Origin: Sulfurimonas hydrogeniphila
GTDB lineage: Bacteria; Campylobacterota; Campylobacteria; Campylobacterales; Sulfurimonadaceae
Length of the DNA: 64,000 nucleotides
Assembly (NCBI RefSeq): GCF_009068765.1
Contig: NZ_CP035534.1
Span: 558,001 to 622,000 of the forward strand
Direction of reading: 5' to 3'
Shown here: positions 37,814 to 48,980 of the stretch, in pieces
Layout of the letters: every line of letters begins with the position of its first letter
Position numbering within the stretch: position 1 is the stretch's first letter
Position numbers and translations under genes: made by a program
The notes under the pieces: generated by a model
Told to the model about the DNA's origin: nothing
What the model saw: only the letters and a program-made list of their open reading frames with translations
Databases searched by the model: none

Positions 37814-38449
37814 ATGCAATTAGGTTTCCTAGTTGATTTACACCTGTGTATGGGTTGTAAAGGTTGTGAGATCGCATGTAAAGTGGAAAATGAAGTTCCG
37901 CTTAGTACATGGAGACTTCGTGTTAAATATGTAGATGTGGGAACTTTCCCTGAAACTAAGAGAACATTCACCCCTCTTAGATGTAATCATTGTGAAAATG
38001 CACCATGTGAAAGAATTTGTCCGGTATCCGCTCTTCACTATATTGAGAATGGTATTGTAAACATTGACAAAGAGAGATGTATCGGCTGTGCCGGTTGTGT
38101 AATGGCCTGTCCGTACGGTGCAATATACATTGATCCTGAAACGCAGACTGCTGATAAATGTACCTACTGTGCACACCGTATTGCATCTTCGATGATGCCG
38201 GCCTGTGTGGTTGCGTGTCCGGTAGAAGCAAATATTTTTGGTGACTTGGAAGATCCTGCATCAAATATTTCAAGATATATTCAAGATCACAGAGATGTAC
38301 AGGTTCGTAAACCTGAGAAGGGAACAAATCCTCATCACTATTATGTCGGAGCAGGACAAGCGAGTCTTAATCCTCTTGCATCAAGAAGAGAAGAAGGGTA
38401 TAACCTGTTTAACAATATTACAACACTTCCACTAGGGGGGCATCACTAA
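37814..38449 (+). CDS. 4Fe-4S electron-transfer subunit (PsrB/PhsB/NrfC type)
   Basis: A 211-residue ferredoxin-like subunit with four cluster motifs: CMGCKGCEIAC, CNHCENAPCERICP, CIGCAGCVMACP, and CTYCAH with CVVACP. It passes electrons between the NrfD quinone-binding subunit and the molybdenum subunit. It has no signal peptide, so it would be carried across with the Tat-exported catalytic subunit. GGAGAATAT precedes the start. Gene order here is B-C-A, unlike the A-B-C of classical psr. TtrB- or SoeB-like assignment is possible. Confidence 0.92.
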   Translation: MQLGFLVDLHLCMGCKGCEIACKVENEVPLSTWRLRVKYVDVGTFPETKRTFTPLRCNHCENAPCERICPVSALHYIENGIVNIDKERCIGCAGCVMACPYGAIYIDPETQTADKCTYCAHRIASSMMPACVVACPVEANIFGDLEDPASNISRYIQDHRDVQVRKPEKGTNPHHYYVGAGQASLNPLASRREEGYNLFNNITTLPLGGHH

Positions 38450-39372
38450 TGGTACATGAAACTTTAGCAGCAACAAATGCTGTAGTAACTCTAGATGTTG
38501 CAATTCCTGATATATTCTGGGGTTGGTATGTAACAATGAATATGTGGGCAAAAAGTATCGGTACCGGTCTGGTATTTATGCTTTTTCTTTTATTAAAGAA
38601 AAATCCGAGTGAAATGAACGGACTGCGAACGCCGGTTATGATTGCTTCTTTTATCTTTATGAATATTTTCCTGGTTTTCACATGGTTGGACCTGCATCAA
38701 ATGTGGAGAATGTGGCATATATTCTTTTATCCTCACTGGACATCAGCAATTACAGTGGGTGCCTGGATGGCAACACTCTTTGTAGGTCTTGAATTTGTCA
38801 TGATTGCAGTAATGATCAGAAAAGAGAAATGTTTGCTGACAAAACAGCCTACCGCCTTTTTTGATAAAACACTTTTTTGGGTAACGCTGCTGGCAATTCC
38901 AGTAACACTTTATACTGCCGGTATTATGGCTGAAGCAACAGCAAGAGAATTATGGCAGATGCCGACAGAATCAGCACAAATGATTTTGGCAGCAACACTG
39001 TCCGGTTCTGCGGCAATTATCCTTCTCGGCGGTTCTAAATTAAGCGATGAAACGAAAAATTTCTTTGGAGCGATTTTAGGATTAAGTGCTTTAATGGCAT
39101 TTATTATTTATATGTCAGAGTATATTTTCGGTGCTATGAAAGCTGAAGAAGTTGCAGCTATCTTAGGCTATGTTAAAGGCGATGGTGAGTATGCTACAAT
39201 GTTCTGGATTGGACAGTGGGTTGCATATATCTTACCAATGATACTGGTTGCGCTTTCACGAGTAAGTAACAGTAGCAGTCTTTTAAACCTCGCAGCTATT
39301 TTAGCTATCGTAGGTCTGTGGGTAGTGAAGCATGTTTGGCTAGTTATTCCACAATTATTACCAATGAGTTAA
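38449..39372 (+). CDS. NrfD/PsrC-type membrane subunit
   Basis: A 307-residue inner-membrane protein with eight or so hydrophobic helices (IPDIFWGWYVTMNMWA at the start, LVVIPQLL-like end). NrfD proteins exchange electrons with menaquinone for the Fe-S subunit. It has no heme ligand pattern of a cytochrome b. The start overlaps the Fe-S subunit stop (TAATG) and the catalytic gene follows after 13 bases. Confidence 0.9.
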   Translation: MVHETLAATNAVVTLDVAIPDIFWGWYVTMNMWAKSIGTGLVFMLFLLLKKNPSEMNGLRTPVMIASFIFMNIFLVFTWLDLHQMWRMWHIFFYPHWTSAITVGAWMATLFVGLEFVMIAVMIRKEKCLLTKQPTAFFDKTLFWVTLLAIPVTLYTAGIMAEATARELWQMPTESAQMILAATLSGSAAIILLGGSKLSDETKNFFGAILGLSALMAFIIYMSEYIFGAMKAEEVAAILGYVKGDGEYATMFWIGQWVAYILPMILVALSRVSNSSSLLNLAAILAIVGLWVVKHVWLVIPQLLPMS

Positions 39373-42669: not shown

Positions 42670-42697
42670 GTAAAGCCCACTTCAAGTGTGGCTTTAC
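42670..42697 (+). terminator. hairpin between the catalytic subunit and torD
   Basis: GTAAAGCC pairs with GGCTTTAC and an inner CAC with GTG around a TTCAA loop. It starts 9 bases after the catalytic subunit stop. There is no T-tract, so it may slow or stabilise the message, giving more enzyme than chaperone, instead of full termination. Confidence 0.5.
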
Positions 42698-42739: not shown

Positions 42740-43390
42740 ATGAATAATGATTTAAAACAAGAGCAGATTGCAAGAATAAATTTGTATGCACTTATCTCAA
42801 GAATAATGATGAGTGAAATTGATGAAGGGCTATTAAAATCAATAGAAGAAGACGAAAATATGCTCTCTTTTTTTTCAACATTCAAAGAATGGAAAAAACG
42901 AAAAGAGCTTGATTCAAAAGATTTGATAGAAAGATATCTGAATGTTGATTTTACTAACCTTTTTTTACTCCATCTTATTCCGTATGAATCATTTTACACG
43001 AGAGATGATCAGATGCTTGAAACAGGTGGCGACAATCCTGTACAGGCCATTTTTAATGCTTTTGAATTTAATGTACAGCTTGACAAAGCACGAGTTATGG
43101 CTGCTGACCATATAGCGATTGAACTTGAGTTTATGTATGAACTCTGCAGAGCAGAGCTAAAGGCACTTGAAGAGGGGAACTCTAAAGTGGCACAGGAGAT
43201 AGCACAGATTCAGTACGGTTTTATGCGAGACCATATTTTGGAGTGGGCGCCAATGTATCTGTTAAATGTGAAAAGTGAAGCAGGCACGGCTTTTTATTTT
43301 GATGCGGCTGATTTGGCTTTGGAGTTCATTATGAGTGACTTTGAATACCTCACAGAATTAAAAAACAGCGGATATAATCACCAAGCATGA
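42740..43390 (+). CDS. TorD-family molybdoenzyme chaperone
   Basis: A 216-residue all-helical protein with the TorD/DmsD motif region HLIPYESFYTRDD, and AADHIAIELEFMYELCR. It should bind the Tat signal of the catalytic subunit and guard cofactor insertion. I chose the ATG at 42740 because AAAAGG lies upstream; the longer frame passes through the hairpin. It overlaps the ferredoxin gene by 4 bases. Confidence 0.88.
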   Translation: MNNDLKQEQIARINLYALISRIMMSEIDEGLLKSIEEDENMLSFFSTFKEWKKRKELDSKDLIERYLNVDFTNLFLLHLIPYESFYTRDDQMLETGGDNPVQAIFNAFEFNVQLDKARVMAADHIAIELEFMYELCRAELKALEEGNSKVAQEIAQIQYGFMRDHILEWAPMYLLNVKSEAGTAFYFDAADLALEFIMSDFEYLTELKNSGYNHQA

Positions 43391-44487
43391 GCCTTTTAAC
43401 TTTAGATGTCAGCAAATGCGTACATACTTCAAACAAGTTTGCAATATGTGACAAATGTGTGCAGGCATGTCCTGTTCAAACAATTCATCTGGAAAACTCT
43501 GCAATCTCTTTTACACCGAGTGAATGTGTTGGATGTGGAGGCTGTAATGCAGTTTGCCCTACTGCGGCATATACACTGGATGATTTTAATCCAATGAATT
43601 ATATTTTCCAGTTTTTAGAAGATGAAAAGAGTGTGCTTACATGTAAGGACGAAAATTTCCCCTGTATAGCCTCATTGAGTGTTGAAGAGTTATTGAGTGT
43701 TGCATTGATATCTTCAGAAAAAATTACTCTGGATGTGGGACCCTGTGCAGAGTGTGAAATAGCAAAAACAAATCTTGCTGTTATAAACAACAGAGCAGAA
43801 GAGGTGAATTTCCTGCTTGAAGCGATGCAACAGGAAAAAAGCCTGAATGTTGCAGCATTGAATTTTGAAATAAAAAAAGAAAGTGATACTTTAAGCCGGC
43901 GTAAACTGCTCTCAAAAGAGGGTGTCAAAACTGCCATCACAATCAAACAACAGCTGCAAAATGAGGTTGATGCAAGCGATAACAATGTAAAAACACATGC
44001 AGTGACAGCAAAAGATATTATGAAAATAAAAGAGAAGACTATACCTGACAGGCGTAGTCTGCTGCTTATGGCAATGAAACGTGCCAAAGTGCCTGATATT
44101 TTTCATACTATATCAATAGATGATATTTCTTTCGTTTCTCAAAAAGATTTGGATGAGACCACGTGTACCAATTGTCAAATGTGTTATAGAATTTGTCCAA
44201 CCGGTGCATTGAGTTCAGATCACAGAGGCAGTAAAATTGATTTTAATCCGCTCGCCTGTGTACAGTGTCACAGCTGTCATGATGTCTGCGAACCGCATTC
44301 TCTCACACTGAGAAAAACATTTTCGCTCAGTACTTTTTTTGAACCGAAAATTGAAACCCTGGTGCGTTTTGACATTAAAAGATGTGATGAATGCGGGAAC
44401 TTTTTTGCCTATCAGGGTGGAGAGAAAATCTGTAACAGATGCAGGATTGAAGAAGAAGAAGCAAAAGAACTATGGGGGATACAATGA
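43387..44487 (+). CDS. multi-cluster ferredoxin-like protein with zinc-ribbon tail
   Basis: A 366-residue cytoplasmic protein with an N-terminal cluster pair (CDKCVQACP, CVGCGGCNAVCP), a middle part of about 180 residues with isolated CKDENFPC and CAEC motifs, a second cluster pair (CTNCQMCYRICP, CVQCHSCHDVCEP), and a C-terminal CDEC-x13-CNRC zinc-ribbon-like pair. It has no signal peptide, unlike the enzyme it neighbours. It may carry electrons or help build the enzyme's Fe-S clusters. It overlaps torD and the next gene by 4 bases each. I know no characterised equivalent. Confidence 0.75.
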   Translation: MSLLTLDVSKCVHTSNKFAICDKCVQACPVQTIHLENSAISFTPSECVGCGGCNAVCPTAAYTLDDFNPMNYIFQFLEDEKSVLTCKDENFPCIASLSVEELLSVALISSEKITLDVGPCAECEIAKTNLAVINNRAEEVNFLLEAMQQEKSLNVAALNFEIKKESDTLSRRKLLSKEGVKTAITIKQQLQNEVDASDNNVKTHAVTAKDIMKIKEKTIPDRRSLLLMAMKRAKVPDIFHTISIDDISFVSQKDLDETTCTNCQMCYRICPTGALSSDHRGSKIDFNPLACVQCHSCHDVCEPHSLTLRKTFSLSTFFEPKIETLVRFDIKRCDECGNFFAYQGGEKICNRCRIEEEEAKELWGIQ

Positions 44488-44909
44488 GTGAAAGAATGGC
44501 AGAAGTCGAGACAATGAATGCTGATGACGGGATCAAAAAAGAGACAAAGCTCTTTGGGCTTATTGCTGAACATGCCAGTCCAAACAGACTGTTTGTTTTA
44601 CTTAACAAAGAGATAAAAGCAAATAATGCCGATGCCATGATGATACCGATGAATATACGCGAAGATGATTTTTATTATACACTTTCAAATATGAAAAAAT
44701 CTCATGTCAACGGTGCATATATAGCAGAAGAATATCAGGAGAGTGCAGTAGAACTGCTGGATGAAGCAGATGAATTTGTACAGGTGTATAACAAGTGTGA
44801 TTTTGTTTTAAGAGACGGTGAACGACTGATCGGAACGTATCTTGAGAAAAACAGTACATTGCTTGGCGAAGATTTAGCAAAAGAAATATTTGAAAAATAT
44901 ATAAGATAG
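44484..44909 (+). CDS. stand-alone protein resembling the shikimate dehydrogenase N-terminal domain
   Basis: A 141-residue protein aligning by eye with the AroE substrate-binding domain: KLFGLIAEHA for the start, ELLDEADEF after the active-site turn, and VLRDGERLIGTYLE for the LxGxNTD end. The shikimate-binding SxS is lost, and the NVTxPxK turn reads GAYIAEEYQE, so the catalytic Lys is Glu. No NADP domain follows. It therefore cannot be a working dehydrogenase and may be a ligand-binding or chaperone protein in this molybdoenzyme operon. The start has GGGG five bases upstream. Confidence 0.65.
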   Translation: MSERMAEVETMNADDGIKKETKLFGLIAEHASPNRLFVLLNKEIKANNADAMMIPMNIREDDFYYTLSNMKKSHVNGAYIAEEYQESAVELLDEADEFVQVYNKCDFVLRDGERLIGTYLEKNSTLLGEDLAKEIFEKYIR

Positions 44910-44919
44910 GAAGACAATT

Positions 44920-45378
44920 ATGGATATAAAAGATTTAAATGAATTAAGAAACGAATTTGAAATGATGCAAAAACAGGCAATGCAGGCTGCCTGTGATGAC
45001 GGAAGCTGTGCAGAAGATGAGTATGAAGACTATCCAGACTATTTAAAGGCCATTTATGCAGAGATTATGCCTCCGGCAAAAAGCGGTATCTATTTTTCAA
45101 GATGGGATTTAAAACGCATAGCAGCTGAACTGGGCGAATCTTTTGCCATAGATGTACGTGAGAGAATGTTTAAAAACTTCATGCAGTGGATTGCTACACC
45201 CGAAGACATGCAGGCTGTTGTCAATGAATTTAAAAAACATATGGATATGAAGTGTGCTTTATATAATGAGTATGTACAAAATTATCCGGCAATGAAAGAG
45301 ATTTTCGAACCGAAAATTCAAAAAGCGGAAAAAGCAAAAAAATATCTTGACAAAGTCTATATCGAGTTTTTTACTTAA
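44920..45378 (+). CDS. conserved hypothetical protein, end of the molybdoenzyme operon
   Basis: A 152-residue, mostly helical, acidic protein with an early ACDDGSC motif and an EYEDYPDYLKAIYAEIMPPAKSG stretch (split here: EYEDYPDYLKAI). I do not recognise it. TAGGAA precedes the start, and only 10 bases separate it from the AroE-like gene, so it belongs to the operon. Its helical content suggests another chaperone-like accessory protein; this is a guess. Its last 8 bases overlap the convergent batD. Confidence 0.65.
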   Translation: MDIKDLNELRNEFEMMQKQAMQAACDDGSCAEDEYEDYPDYLKAIYAEIMPPAKSGIYFSRWDLKRIAAELGESFAIDVRERMFKNFMQWIATPEDMQAVVNEFKKHMDMKCALYNEYVQNYPAMKEIFEPKIQKAEKAKKYLDKVYIEFFT

Positions 45379-46522
45379 GCTTTTTCAGTATCTCTTTTTT
45401 TATTTTTCCGAGATTGAGGGGATGTTTTTCATGAATATCTGCCTCAAGCTTTGCAATATCCTCATCTAAACCTCTGTTTTGATAATTCATTATTAAGAGC
45501 AAGAGCAATTCTTTTGCATCTATTGCGCGTTTAATATCTGCAAACTCTTCTTTTTGTTTTTTTGTAAAAAATGATTTTTGACTGATTTTTGCGGTGAAAA
45601 ATCCGGCTAAAAAAATCAGGGTATAGATGAAAAAAGTTTTTATCTGCGCAAAATTTATCCATGCTTGATTTTGTGGGGCATTTGTTTTATCTAACAAGAG
45701 TGCAGGATTTGTTTTTTTTACTTTGACTTTATATGCTTTTGTATGGAGTGTGTAATAGCTGTTTTTGCGCGGGGAATAAACTTCTAACGCAAAAGAGGGG
45801 ATTGTAAAATTATCTGACGCGCTGAGGGCATATATATATTCTGTATTGATAATATACCCATCTTCTGTAAGCCTGGAAAGTTTGTCTTTTCTTTTTGAAA
45901 ATATGCTTACATTTTCAATTTGCGTATTGAGGATATTCAATGCTGTTTCTTTGTAACCCGTACCGGAGAGTATATAATGCAGATTGACAATCCCATACTG
46001 GTCAATTTCATCGGTGTCAATTGTAGAGCTGATTTTAAAATCTCCTACCAGGTCAACATGTTTTTTAAATTTTTCTACCTTGAGTGTTAAAGGTTTGAGC
46101 GCTATTTTTGTATCATAGGTGCTGATGGCTATACTGTCATCATGGTCATCAACATAACTTTGTTTGACAGCTTTGTCACTGGCGGTGCGAATAATAAAAT
46201 CAAAATTTACATGCAGTGTTTTTGCTTTGAGTGCAAAGAGAATAAACTTAAAGGTTGTCTTCGTGTTGTGGTAGCCTTTGTCCTGTATGCTTTTTTGTAA
46301 AAGTTTTACTTCATAATCAGGGCTTTTTTGCACATTAAAGGAAAAAAACATATGATCACTGTGGTTTTTCTGTTCCGCCTGAAAGGTAATGAGCAGAGGT
46401 TCTTTGATGTGGACACTTTTTTTATTGGTTGTAAGTTTGTAGGTTGCCAGCTGGCCTGCACCAAAAAGTGAGACAGTAAAAAGTATAAAAAGCAAAAATA
46501 TCTTACCAAGGGTGTTTTTCAT
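45371..46522 (-). CDS. batD: BatD-like membrane protein
   Basis: A 383-residue protein with a signal peptide (FLLFILFTVSLFGAG), a large periplasmic beta-rich region of about 280 residues, one transmembrane helix near residue 305 (FFIYTLIFLAGFFTAKI), and a charged cytoplasmic tail. This is the BatD pattern. With batA and batB upstream it belongs to the Bat (Bacteroides aerotolerance-type) system, whose molecular role is unsettled. Its start overlaps the batB end by 20 bases. Confidence 0.8.
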   Translation of the reverse strand: MKNTLGKIFLLFILFTVSLFGAGQLATYKLTTNKKSVHIKEPLLITFQAEQKNHSDHMFFSFNVQKSPDYEVKLLQKSIQDKGYHNTKTTFKFILFALKAKTLHVNFDFIIRTASDKAVKQSYVDDHDDSIAISTYDTKIALKPLTLKVEKFKKHVDLVGDFKISSTIDTDEIDQYGIVNLHYILSGTGYKETALNILNTQIENVSIFSKRKDKLSRLTEDGYIINTEYIYALSASDNFTIPSFALEVYSPRKNSYYTLHTKAYKVKVKKTNPALLLDKTNAPQNQAWINFAQIKTFFIYTLIFLAGFFTAKISQKSFFTKKQKEEFADIKRAIDAKELLLLLIMNYQNRGLDEDIAKLEADIHEKHPLNLGKIKKEILKKLK

Positions 46523-48072
46523 TTGTATATCCTTTGTTTATGAGTTCATAAGCTCTGTATCCCAGCTTGTATTTTGATTTGTTTTTCTTCTTTACATGTA
46601 GAAGATTTTGGTTCTCTTTTTTCTTTTTGCTGTTTTTTCCGCTGCCGCTGCTTTTTTGTGAAGCTTTTTGCTGTGAGTTGGACGATGAGGCACTTTTGTT
46701 TGTGCTTTTTTTCTGCATTTGTTTTTTATCGTCTTGCTTTTTGCGCTGCCTGTTGGTTTTTGGAAGCATTTGTCCGAGATTTTTTTCATCCTGAAGTCCC
46801 AGTTTATACAGAAGGCTGAGATTGTAAAAAGCATCTTTGTCAAATCCAAGTGCCAATGATTTTTGGTAGTAGCGTATTGCTCGGCTGTATTTTTTCAAGG
46901 CAACAGCACAATTGCCGAGATTGTAAAAAATATTTTGTTTGAGTTTTGGATCAGTGGAACGTATTTGTGAAAAAAGTTCTACAGCTTTTTTGTAATTTTT
47001 TGCTTTGCAATAGGCAACTGCACTGTTATAGTAGCTTGCAGGGGAGGGAGAAAGCTTGAGAAACTCCTGTGCAGCAGCTGCATAGTTTTTATGCCTGTAT
47101 GCCTGATTTGCTTTGTTGTGATGGTAAAAATCCAAGAGCGAGGCCGCATGAACGGGGTATGGCAGAATGATAAAGGGCAGAAAAACAAAGAGTTGGTGCA
47201 GTTTTGTTACAGCAAGAAAAAAACTAAGCAGCGCTATAAAAAGCGGAAAAATAAAAAGTTCCCGGTAGCTGAGTACCTTTGTCGTTGATTCAACAGCAGT
47301 ATCCTGTTCTTGAAGATCGCTGATGATTTCCTTTGATATATCTGCATCTGTGTCTAATTCATAATATTTTCCTCCGCACTCCTGTGCCAACGGTTTTAAA
47401 AGTGGATTTATTCTTGAAATTACAAGATTCTCGTTATTGTCCAAAATAGGTTTGTTGTTCTTTTTCAGTGTGGTTCCTTTTGTTGAACCTGTTGCAACGA
47501 TATAGGGAATGATGCTATTTTTTTACATATATCTACGAGGCTGGCAAGATCTTTGTCCTCGCCCCCGTCAGTGAAAATAATGAGATTTTTTTGTTTATAG
47601 GAAGTCTTGGCAATACTTTGAAACAAAGAGAGCAGGGAGGTTCCTTTTGTTAATATATATTTTGGCTCCAGAGAGTTGAGTGCCATCATACTGATGGTAC
47701 TGTCTGTTGTCGGAGGTGAGATGAGCATGGCATTGGAGGTGAATGCAAAAATACTGAACCGATCCTGATTCAGTTGCCTAAGCAAAGAGGCAATATTTTT
47801 TTTGCCACTTCATAGCGTGTTGGCTTCAGATCATCCGCCTGCATTGAAAAGGATGCATCAAGGGCTATAATATAATCCTGTGCATCAAATTTTTGCTCGA
47901 TCGGTTTGTTTGTAATGACCGGTCGACTGAGTGCGATGAGCATAAAAAACAGAGAAAGGTAGAGCAGGTTCTTTTGCTTTTTTGTTTTTTGCTGTGTCTC
48001 TTTTATATCATTCTTATAGTAAAAATACAGTGGAATCAGAAAAGAAAGAATCCAGGGATACAAAAGTGTCAT
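46503..48072 (-). pseudogene. batB: BatB-type VWA protein fused to TPR repeats, with two frameshifts
   Basis: Three overlapping or adjacent frames on the same strand join into one protein of about 523 residues. The first has two N-terminal membrane helices and DYIIALDASFSMQ (MIDAS); the second continues the VWA fold with FTDGGEDKD; the third starts in the third frame with VATGSTKGTTLK-like sequence, a membrane helix pair, TPR repeats and a lysine/serine-rich tail. Both breaks lie in A-runs: eight A at about 47800-47807 and seven A at about 47518-47524 (complement strand). One added A at each restores the frame. These may be assembly errors, a real pseudogene, or slippage sites. Confidence 0.8.
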
Positions 48073-48980
48073 AAAACTTCCTTTTTCTGTTTTGCAATAA
48101 GATAGAACAGCAGGAGCAATGCCAAAGTAAGCGGATAGATAAAGAGATTTTGTTTATGAAGATAATGTTTTGATCGAATGGCACTTGGTTCGAGTTTGTC
48201 TATTTCCTGATAAACTTCTTGCAGCATCTTGACATCTTTAGCCGCAAACATTTTTGCACCTGTGTTTTTTGCTATGAGTTTGAGAAGATTGGCATCAAAA
48301 GAGGAGGTGTCTCCTATGCCTATGGTATAAATTTTCACATGCTGCTTTTTTGCCCTTTGTACCGCCTCTTTTACAGAAACAGCACCACTGTTCTGATAGC
48401 CGTCTGTCACTAGAATAATCACTTTTTCTTTTGCTTTTCCTTTTTTGAGGATTTTGAGTGCAGTTGCCAGTCCTTCTCCTATAGCGGTACTTTCTCCTGC
48501 AATGCCCACATCAAAAAAATCCAGTAAAAATGCAACACTCTTCATGTCATAGCTCAAAGGAATGGCAGGATAGGCATAGCTTCCAAATATTGCTACACCG
48601 ACATTGTCGTTGTAACGTTTGGATATAAATGAAGCTAAAAGTTCCTTGAGTGCATCAAATTTTCTTTTTTGCGGATTTTCTGAGTCAAATCCACTCTCCG
48701 CCATGGAACCGCTGGTATCAAGAGCAAAAACCAAATCTCTTCCTTTTCGCTTGGAAGAACTTTTTTGGTCATATACAATTGGTGAGGCAAGTGCAAAAAT
48801 CATAGAGGAGAGAATCAGGGAATAGAGCAGTTTTTCCTTGTTGATGAAAGAGGTTTTTTTTGAAAAGAGATGTATGTGCGGGAAAATAATTTTTTTGAGC
48901 GTAAGAGGACATTTATATATGCAGATTACCAAAAGTAAAAGGATGAAAACATAAGGATATTCAAAGGTAAAATTATTCAA
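48069..48980 (-). CDS. batA: BatA-like VWA membrane protein
   Basis: A 303-residue protein with N-terminal hydrophobic segments, a von Willebrand factor A domain with the metal site VFALDTSGSMAESG and LVTDGYQNSG, and a C-terminal transmembrane helix (FIYPLTLALLLLFYLIAK). It starts with TTG; no strong ribosome binding site is visible. It is first in the batA-batB-batD run. The MoxR ATPase and DUF58 genes that normally lie before batA are not present; the next gene is divergent. Confidence 0.88.
   Translation of the reverse strand: MNNFTFEYPYVFILLLLVICIYKCPLTLKKIIFPHIHLFSKKTSFINKEKLLYSLILSSMIFALASPIVYDQKSSSKRKGRDLVFALDTSGSMAESGFDSENPQKRKFDALKELLASFISKRYNDNVGVAIFGSYAYPAIPLSYDMKSVAFLLDFFDVGIAGESTAIGEGLATALKILKKGKAKEKVIILVTDGYQNSGAVSVKEAVQRAKKQHVKIYTIGIGDTSSFDANLLKLIAKNTGAKMFAAKDVKMLQEVYQEIDKLEPSAIRSKHYLHKQNLFIYPLTLALLLLFYLIAKQKKEVL

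Follow-up and report, generated by a model that had tools for sequence, protein, structure and literature searches.

Dedicated assembly factors for molybdoenzymes draw on few folds: the relevant sections of one review name TorD/NarJ/DmsD, FdhD, FdhE, NapD, NapF and XdhC, and the fold of shikimate dehydrogenase (AroE) is absent from that list (PMC10609526). As outlined in those sections, TorD-type chaperones load and proofread molybdoenzymes exported by the twin-arginine translocation (Tat) pathway, NapF is a cytoplasmic ferredoxin with four tetra-cysteine motifs on which NapA in R. sphaeroides depends for Fe-S assembly prior to its export, and the Rossmann-like XdhC and the alpha/beta FdhD are chaperones that bind the molybdenum cofactor (Moco). 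In complex iron-sulfur molybdoenzyme (CISM) operons of the nrfD-hybA-bisC kind, NrfD, an iron-sulfur protein, the molybdoenzyme and a DmsD/TorD-type chaperone are encoded together, and other CISM operons carry extra genes, such as fdh with DUF3305/DUF3306 (PMC4464133, passages on operon content). Here we describe a plus-strand block of seven genes (FeS_B, NrfD, MoA, TorD, Fdx4, AroEL and H152) in a stretch of 64,000 nucleotides from Sulfurimonas hydrogeniphila (contig NZ_CP035534.1, positions 558,001 to 622,000; hereafter the window), whose genome is a single contig of 2.34 Mb. The sixth gene, AroEL, encodes a homologue of AroE that we regard as a pseudoenzyme; on balance it probably belongs with TorD, Fdx4 and H152 to a maturation set dedicated to the molybdoenzyme MoA, most likely as an adaptor.

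With AroE itself (PF08501 plus PF01488; TIGR00507) AroEL shares the fold of the N-terminal domain, the asparagine of the HN motif (N41) and, in the longer members of the family, homology over both domains; it differs in that the window protein lacks the SxS shikimate site, the catalytic Lys and Asp and the NADP domain, and in that it sits in a molybdoenzyme cassette. Like the redox enzyme maturation proteins TorD, DmsD and NarJ it is encoded by a system-specific accessory gene in a CISM operon, and its cassette includes a TorD, but the predicted fold of AroEL is the alpha/beta fold of AroE and that of TorD is helical. The NapD/NapF set likewise places a polyferredoxin and small accessory proteins beside a Tat-exported molybdoenzyme; we are aware of nothing in the Nap set that corresponds to AroEL or H152, although no search for such a counterpart was made. 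Fdx4, however, scores under the NapF cut-off, and NapD has a ferredoxin fold (PMC10609526, same sections). XdhC and FdhD provide a precedent for molybdoenzyme maturation having enlisted proteins of alpha/beta or Rossmann-like fold; both bind Moco, whereas AroEL is not known to do so and has lost its Rossmann domain in several lineages. The four components listed above for CISM operons all recur in the window, and the passages on extra genes in those operons mention no AroE-like gene (PMC4464133). In the open-access literature, subscription papers being outside the scope of the search, we found no paper that joins shikimate dehydrogenase or AroE-like proteins with molybdoenzymes, TorD or polysulfide reductase, papers on AroE-like proteins being judged by title; a single paper that pairs shikimate dehydrogenase with the term pseudoenzyme concerns, by its listing, a protist plastid.

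AroEL is a homologue of shikimate dehydrogenase, and the resemblance is beyond chance. It is weak for the single protein, which at E ≤ 1 matches PF08501 (20.8 bits, E 4.7e-4, short of the gathering score of 27) and nothing else in Pfam, including the helical PF02613 fold of TorD/NarJ, and which scores 19.0 bits against TIGR00507, well below the curated AroE cut-off of 200.2. For the family it is clear. PF08501 is matched at E ≤ 0.001 by 13 of the 25 members of our alignment A1, and every one of the 15 PDB sequences that the A1 profile retrieves at E ≤ 0.01 is an AroE-superfamily dehydrogenase (shikimate and quinate/shikimate dehydrogenases plus one 5-ketofructose reductase; best E 1.1e-10). 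An AlphaFold2 model built from a 14-sequence alignment (predicted local distance difference test score 83.2, predicted template modeling score 0.75) has the fold of the AroE N-terminal substrate domain: the 50 Foldseek matches listed of 95 in the PDB at E ≤ 0.001 are all of the AroE superfamily (best E 1.7e-8), and VIA-align superposes the model on Aquifex aeolicus AroE (2hk8/2hk9) with Z 17.5 and a root-mean-square deviation of 1.9 Å over 126 residues. A preliminary description of this DNA, made from the sequence alone, had proposed that the protein follows the AroE N-terminal domain and had named structure prediction as a check; both the family profile and the model agree with it. It had also called AroEL an orphan, and this was wrong: AroEL is a conserved family, found in 30 of the 37 genomes of our genus set (a count that leaves out G008, where the match is a canonical AroE over the aroE cut-off), which rules out an orphan gene. 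A move of the genome's own aroE into the operon is ruled out as well, canonical aroE lying separately at C1:907886-908665.

The case for a role tied to MoA comes from the distribution of the two genes. Among 249 Campylobacterota genomes, MoA (match at E ≤ 1e-100) occurs in 37, AroEL in 36 and both in 35. AroEL was counted at 49 bits or more, a line drawn after viewing the list; one match above it, in G205 (53 bits), was set aside as a canonical AroE, and the four that rank just under it (G061, G286, G092 and G167) belong to canonical AroE as well, their translations containing SxS, Lys and the NTD motif. MoA lacks AroEL in G042, where Fdx4 is cut at a contig end, and in G185; AroEL lacks MoA in G245, where the AroEL contig begins inside Fdx4. 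Contig ends could account for two of these three discrepancies. Strong Fdx4 matches (E < 1e-100) are found in 37 of these genomes and strong H152 matches (E < 1e-30) in 36, of which 35 genomes have both. MoA was present, linked or not, in all 26 AroEL-bearing genomes examined (split over two contigs in G027), the full MoA search covering the AroEL-bearing genomes of the genus set other than G001, G013, G014, G016, G026 and G033. AroEL lies apart from MoA in 17 of the 30 AroEL-bearing genomes of that set, and all 17 carry MoA. Among 14 AroEL-less genomes examined, a MoA orthologue is absent from nine and present in five. Of these five, G185 is taken up below; in G008 and G021 the cassette is interrupted where a contig ends; G036 has an H152 fragment at a contig start and no Fdx4 that we could find, its cassette having probably fallen into an assembly gap; and G034, listed as 68% complete, has only a MoA fragment near a contig end.

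Losses run together in the same way. G007 and G022 have no MoA, AroEL, H152, strong Fdx4 or PF02613 match. G024 (listed as 100% complete, 250 contigs) lacks a MoA orthologue as well as AroEL and H152; its syntenic cassette site, with flanking genes as in L046, holds Fdx4 alone, without TorD (L202:4996-6084), and its two other TorD-type genes adjoin other molybdoenzymes. G242 has Fdx4 (L210:4555-5547), on a contig interrupted by a run of N, and no MoA, AroEL or H152. We infer that AroEL and H152 serve MoA, for which this correlated loss is the best single argument. AroEL thus shows the genetic association with one molybdoenzyme that marks a system-specific accessory protein, and the earlier idea that a metabolic fold was reused as a molybdoenzyme accessory factor is right in outline, supported by the joint occurrence of the two genes. 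Those of the 80 loci listed from an Fdx4 scan that bear AroEL all come from records named as Campylobacterota groups. G018 has two closely similar cassettes (L036 and L037), either a duplication or a mixed assembly (listed contamination 5%).

Several observations weigh against so close a tie. The co-occurrence counts are not independent of phylogeny. In a survey of 57 AroEL loci (the window not counted, at least two duplicates among them), MoA lies in the same stretch at 25 and is missing from it at 32, of which 25, mostly standalone TorD-Fdx4-AroEL-H152 cassettes, are from the window's genus. The question raised earlier, whether homologues lie mainly outside molybdoenzyme loci, therefore has a divided answer, with most loci apart from MoA and MoA present in every AroEL-bearing genome examined. 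G185 has MoA, TorD, Fdx4 and H152 and no AroEL (L165), a real absence, with 15 bases between the Fdx4 and H152 open reading frames (ORFs; L165:6543-8731); AroEL is therefore not strictly needed. Fdx4 persists without MoA and AroEL in G024 and G242; it is therefore not bound to MoA and may also serve another function. Finally, Fdx4 scores 39.2 bits against the NapF model TIGR00402, where the cut-off is 102.2.

The mechanism that we favor would run as follows. AroEL, derived from a full-length AroE and presumably cytoplasmic, would form with TorD, Fdx4 and H152 a maturation set dedicated to Tat-exported MoA, in which the AroE N-terminal domain, no longer catalytic and in many cases without its NADP domain, would act as an adaptor. 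Its newly conserved face (N41, I54-I58, D62, S73 and E83) would hold TorD, Fdx4 or apo-MoA while the Fe-S cluster and the molybdenum cofactor enter MoA, before export. An assembly role is suggested by the co-occurrence with MoA and by the nature of the partners, TorD and a NapF-like ferredoxin. We propose its action as an adaptor, and the face involved, more tentatively. It is conceivable, at distinctly lower probability, that AroEL represents a new structural class of molybdoenzyme chaperone, in which an AroE N-terminal domain, relieved of catalysis and more than once of its NADP domain, would use a remodelled pocket and strand-2 face (E83, D106, D62 and N57) to grip, alongside TorD and Fdx4, either the Tat signal of MoA or MoA that still lacks its cofactor.

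What remains of the old active site bears on the alternative that AroEL binds a small ligand (a pterin, molybdopterin, or an aromatic or quinone precursor) in the former shikimate pocket and either passes it to the molybdoenzyme or senses it on that enzyme's behalf. We compared 13 landmark residues in 16 canonical Campylobacterota AroE and 60 AroEL sequences (two duplicate loci included). All 13 are kept in 16/16 canonical proteins; the window AroEL retains none of the shikimate-site or catalytic ones. In the SxS loop, whose placement in the AroEL alignment is uncertain by one to two residues, the first Ser is found in 34 of 60 and the second in two. The Asn of ANV and the Asn of the VNT site are kept in none, the latter being replaced by Asp in 52; the catalytic Lys is kept in two, the catalytic Asp in seven and a landmark Gln in one; and the Pro of VPxK has become Glu83 (0.91 of 32 representatives less than 65% identical to one another). 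Conservation over these 32 peaks at I58 (1.00), followed by N41 (0.97), I54 and N57 (0.94), L23, S73 and E83 (0.91), D62 and G117 (0.81) and D106 (0.78); among the peaks N41 is the sole residue also invariant in the 16 canonical AroE. A ligand would suit a domain that in AroE is the substrate domain, some of whose pocket positions (the first SxS Ser, the Asp at the VNT site, Glu83) are conserved, and the Moco-binding XdhC and FdhD offer a parallel. The other pocket positions (second Ser, ANV Asn, Lys), however, are variable or hydrophobic, and the strongest new conservation lies mostly where strand 2 ends and along helix 2, so that we regard a ligand-binding role as unlikely. Of the earlier claims about this site, the loss of SxS stands (Asn34-x-Leu36 in the window against SxS in every canonical sequence), as does the loss of the catalytic Lys, although its replacement in this alignment is Gln85 rather than Glu; the suggested pterin-like or aromatic ligand finds no support, most former pocket positions being variable or hydrophobic even though the first SxS Ser often survives.

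The order of the cassette genes is fluid. Beside loci with MoA plus a separate TorD-Fdx4-AroEL-H152, G088 and G009 have MoA-TorD-H152 at one place and Fdx4-AroEL at another, G223 has MoA, TorD-Fdx4 and AroEL-H152 on three contigs, and in G279 MoA and the cassette are about 15 kb apart; all these splits nonetheless keep the full set in the genome. At L189, L191 and L194 the MoA operon reads FeS_B-NrfD-MoA-TorD-H152 and Fdx4-AroEL lies elsewhere in the genome; in G021, the genome of L194, the contig stops within Fdx4 and no AroEL could be located. AroEL follows Fdx4 in 56 of the 57 loci, and the two stay joined in the split cassettes of G088 and G009, which would fit AroEL as a structural or redox partner of Fdx4 in a cytoplasmic electron-transfer subcomplex, not an assembly factor. 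This too seems improbable: MoA, with its twin-arginine start, should act in the periplasm and Fdx4 and AroEL by eye have no signal, AroEL is separate from Fdx4 in G223, and Fdx4 occurs without AroEL in G185, G024 and G242.

AroEL proteins of relatives are either short (121–170 amino acids) or long (about 250–290, with an NADP-type domain), disregarding ORFs inflated by upstream extension (L042, L159) or clipped at contig ends (L072, L083). The window protein, at 141 amino acids, has no C-terminal NADP-binding Rossmann domain, as the preliminary description had noted. In long forms the glycine loop is mostly degraded (for example GTNHYAKA for GAGGTAKA), and the L056/L058 family retains a glycine-rich loop (GAGATARA or GASGVGRA). 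Because of that loop, and because the long form of G039 matches TIGR00507 over positions 2–262 of 270 (48 bits, E 7.5e-13), we take the long form as ancestral, a polarity suggested by these sequences. On an Fdx4 tree of 56 rows (two identical copies dropped; L059 and L083 on very long branches and unsurely placed), the long/short label changes four times (4–5 in bootstrap replicates), at least three changes being forced by well-supported branches, and L161, sister of the window's short clade, is a long form; the NADP domain thus disappeared on more than one occasion. In the window protein the loss was probably an internal excision that kept the C-terminal helix, as the model suggests, its input alignment itself having paired the AroEL tail with that helix. 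Simple truncation at the linker helix is the competing explanation, and the sequence evidence is mixed: of 22 long forms, 15 have their C-terminal 45 residues as the best counterpart of the short tails (about 3.8 expected by chance), three of the 15 being matched away from the final helix; for L161, the closest long form, the tails align with the linker helix instead; and in canonical AroE the C-terminal part wins in 6 of 16 (about 2.7 by chance). Internal excision remains a leading interpretation. The retained loops of L056 and L058 might also point to a working enzyme with an altered reaction, which is very improbable given the scarcity of the catalytic Lys (2/60) and Asp (7/60) and the absence of the NADP domain from the window and many relatives.

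AroEL is under purifying selection, as are TorD and Fdx4. Ratios of nonsynonymous to synonymous differences per site (pN/pS; Nei-Gojobori, six short-form loci, 15 pairs per gene), rough values since synonymous sites are near saturation, are 0.105–0.313 for short-form AroEL, 0.106–0.297 for H152, 0.115–0.317 for Fdx4, 0.123–0.272 for TorD and 0.107–0.234 for MoA, with 0.102–0.325 for long-form AroEL (21 pairs); no ratio suggests decay. That AroEL is a decaying gene retained in the operon by chance, as its lost domain and active site and its absence from G185 might imply, is hardly credible in view of its pN/pS, of the lack of an internal stop in any listed AroEL match of the genus set, of the intact ORFs in G087, G103 and G189 even though the matches there span a stop, and of its presence in 35 of the 37 MoA genomes.

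Table 1. Genes of the MoA block and landmark positions within AroEL (window coordinates)
Feature	Position	Strand	Basis or remark
FeS_B, iron-sulfur subunit	37814..38449	+	TtrB/ArrB models nearest; scores below their cut-offs
NrfD-type membrane anchor	38449..39372	+	Profile match
MoA, catalytic molybdoenzyme subunit, 1091 amino acids	39386..42661	+	Twin-arginine start QSRRTFLKG
TorD	42740..43390	+	Nitrate_red_del (TorD/NarJ) match; start from homologue lengths
Fdx4, polyferredoxin, 366 amino acids	43387..44487	+	By eye without export signal
AroEL, putative AroE-derived pseudoenzyme, 141 amino acids	44484..44909	+	AroE family profile and predicted fold
SxS loop position, here Asn34-x-Leu36 (codons 34-36)	44583..44591	+	Alignment with 16 canonical AroE
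NIREDDF, AroEL-specific conserved block (codons 57-63)	44652..44672	+	N57 0.94, I58 1.00, D62 0.81 (32 representatives)
AroE catalytic Lys position, here Gln85 (codon 85)	44736..44738	+	Alignment with canonical AroE
AroE catalytic Asp (NTD motif) position, here Glu121 (codon 121)	44844..44846	+	Alignment with canonical AroE
Last helix of AroEL (codons 129-140)	44868..44903	+	Superposed on AroE C-terminal helix in model
H152, all-helical protein, 152 amino acids, last cassette gene	44920..45378	+	Matches no known fold

The positions of the block are collected in Table 1. A Tat model matches the N-terminus of MoA with a score under the model cut-off, and the molybdoenzyme operon setting given for AroEL in the preliminary description is borne out by this protein in the same block. 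The AroEL gene runs from an ATG at 44484 to a stop ending at 44909 (the mechanical ORF opens at 44472), with GGGGGA just upstream and an ATG that overlaps the Fdx4 stop by 4 nucleotides (ATGA); the TorD ORF opens at 42686 (GTG), homologue lengths suggesting a start near 42740. Four-base stop/start overlaps at both the TorD/Fdx4 and the Fdx4/AroEL junctions suggest coupled translation at these sites. AroEL had been said to overlap both the ferredoxin and the TorD gene; the first overlap is there, and TorD is overlapped by the ferredoxin gene, not by AroEL. Downstream, a convergent minus-strand block (45371-48980) has a Bat-type look (BatD-like, tetratricopeptide repeat and von Willebrand factor A proteins, named by reading translations).

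MoA is nearest to polysulfide and thiosulfate reductases of the PhsA/PsrA type, judged by sequence, though far below their cut-off (122.6 bits against PhsA, NCBIfam cut-off 694); its best PDB sequence, 2vpw (E 5e-33), covers only residues 95–333. The portions of two papers that deal with psr clusters place these in Sulfurovum and Nautilia, with locus tags that could not be matched to MoA (PMC10045233, PMC2628731), and in the open-access literature we found no paper naming MoA, including by way of three S. denitrificans locus tags. TorD is the sole PF02613 (Nitrate_red_del) match in the window genome. Distant Fdx4-like proteins (L087-L101; about 21–26% identity over most of their length) occur in Rhodobacterales and other alphaproteobacteria, and no AroEL or H152 match at E ≤ 0.001 stands beside distant Fdx4-like genes in the 63 loci L086-L148. 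We also rejected a connection with type II dimethyl sulfoxide (DMSO)-reductase-like operons, where the TorD and Fdx4-like pair (L149, L150, L153, L167) is without AroEL. The H152 family is all-helical, with a conserved SGxYxSRxD-like core; the window protein matches no Pfam or NCBIfam family over cut-off and no PDB fold (best Foldseek E 1.6). RhoGEF, matched by 7 of 17 members at best with 25.8 bits against a cut-off of 27.6, was taken as a helical coincidence. A shorter H152 homologue (L149:3269-3646, minus strand) lies near type II DMSO-reductase-like operons, where it adjoins an ApbC/Mrp-like gene and a repeat protein (names from reading translations).

A shikimate-pathway enzyme thus appears to have been turned into a molybdoenzyme assembly factor of another fold. 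If this is true, a metabolic dehydrogenase has come to serve the assembly of a respiratory enzyme in Campylobacterota, and living intermediates of the change survive, from full-length forms with a glycine-rich loop, through full-length forms with a degraded NADP domain, to forms that lack the domain; the pseudoenzyme's change of use is therefore directly testable. The cassette marks genomes that carry one molybdoenzyme unmatched to any characterized one, and it would bring two further partner proteins, AroEL and H152, into the biogenesis of MoA. We rate it as a kind of molybdoenzyme maturation cassette with an unusual and evolutionarily traceable component.

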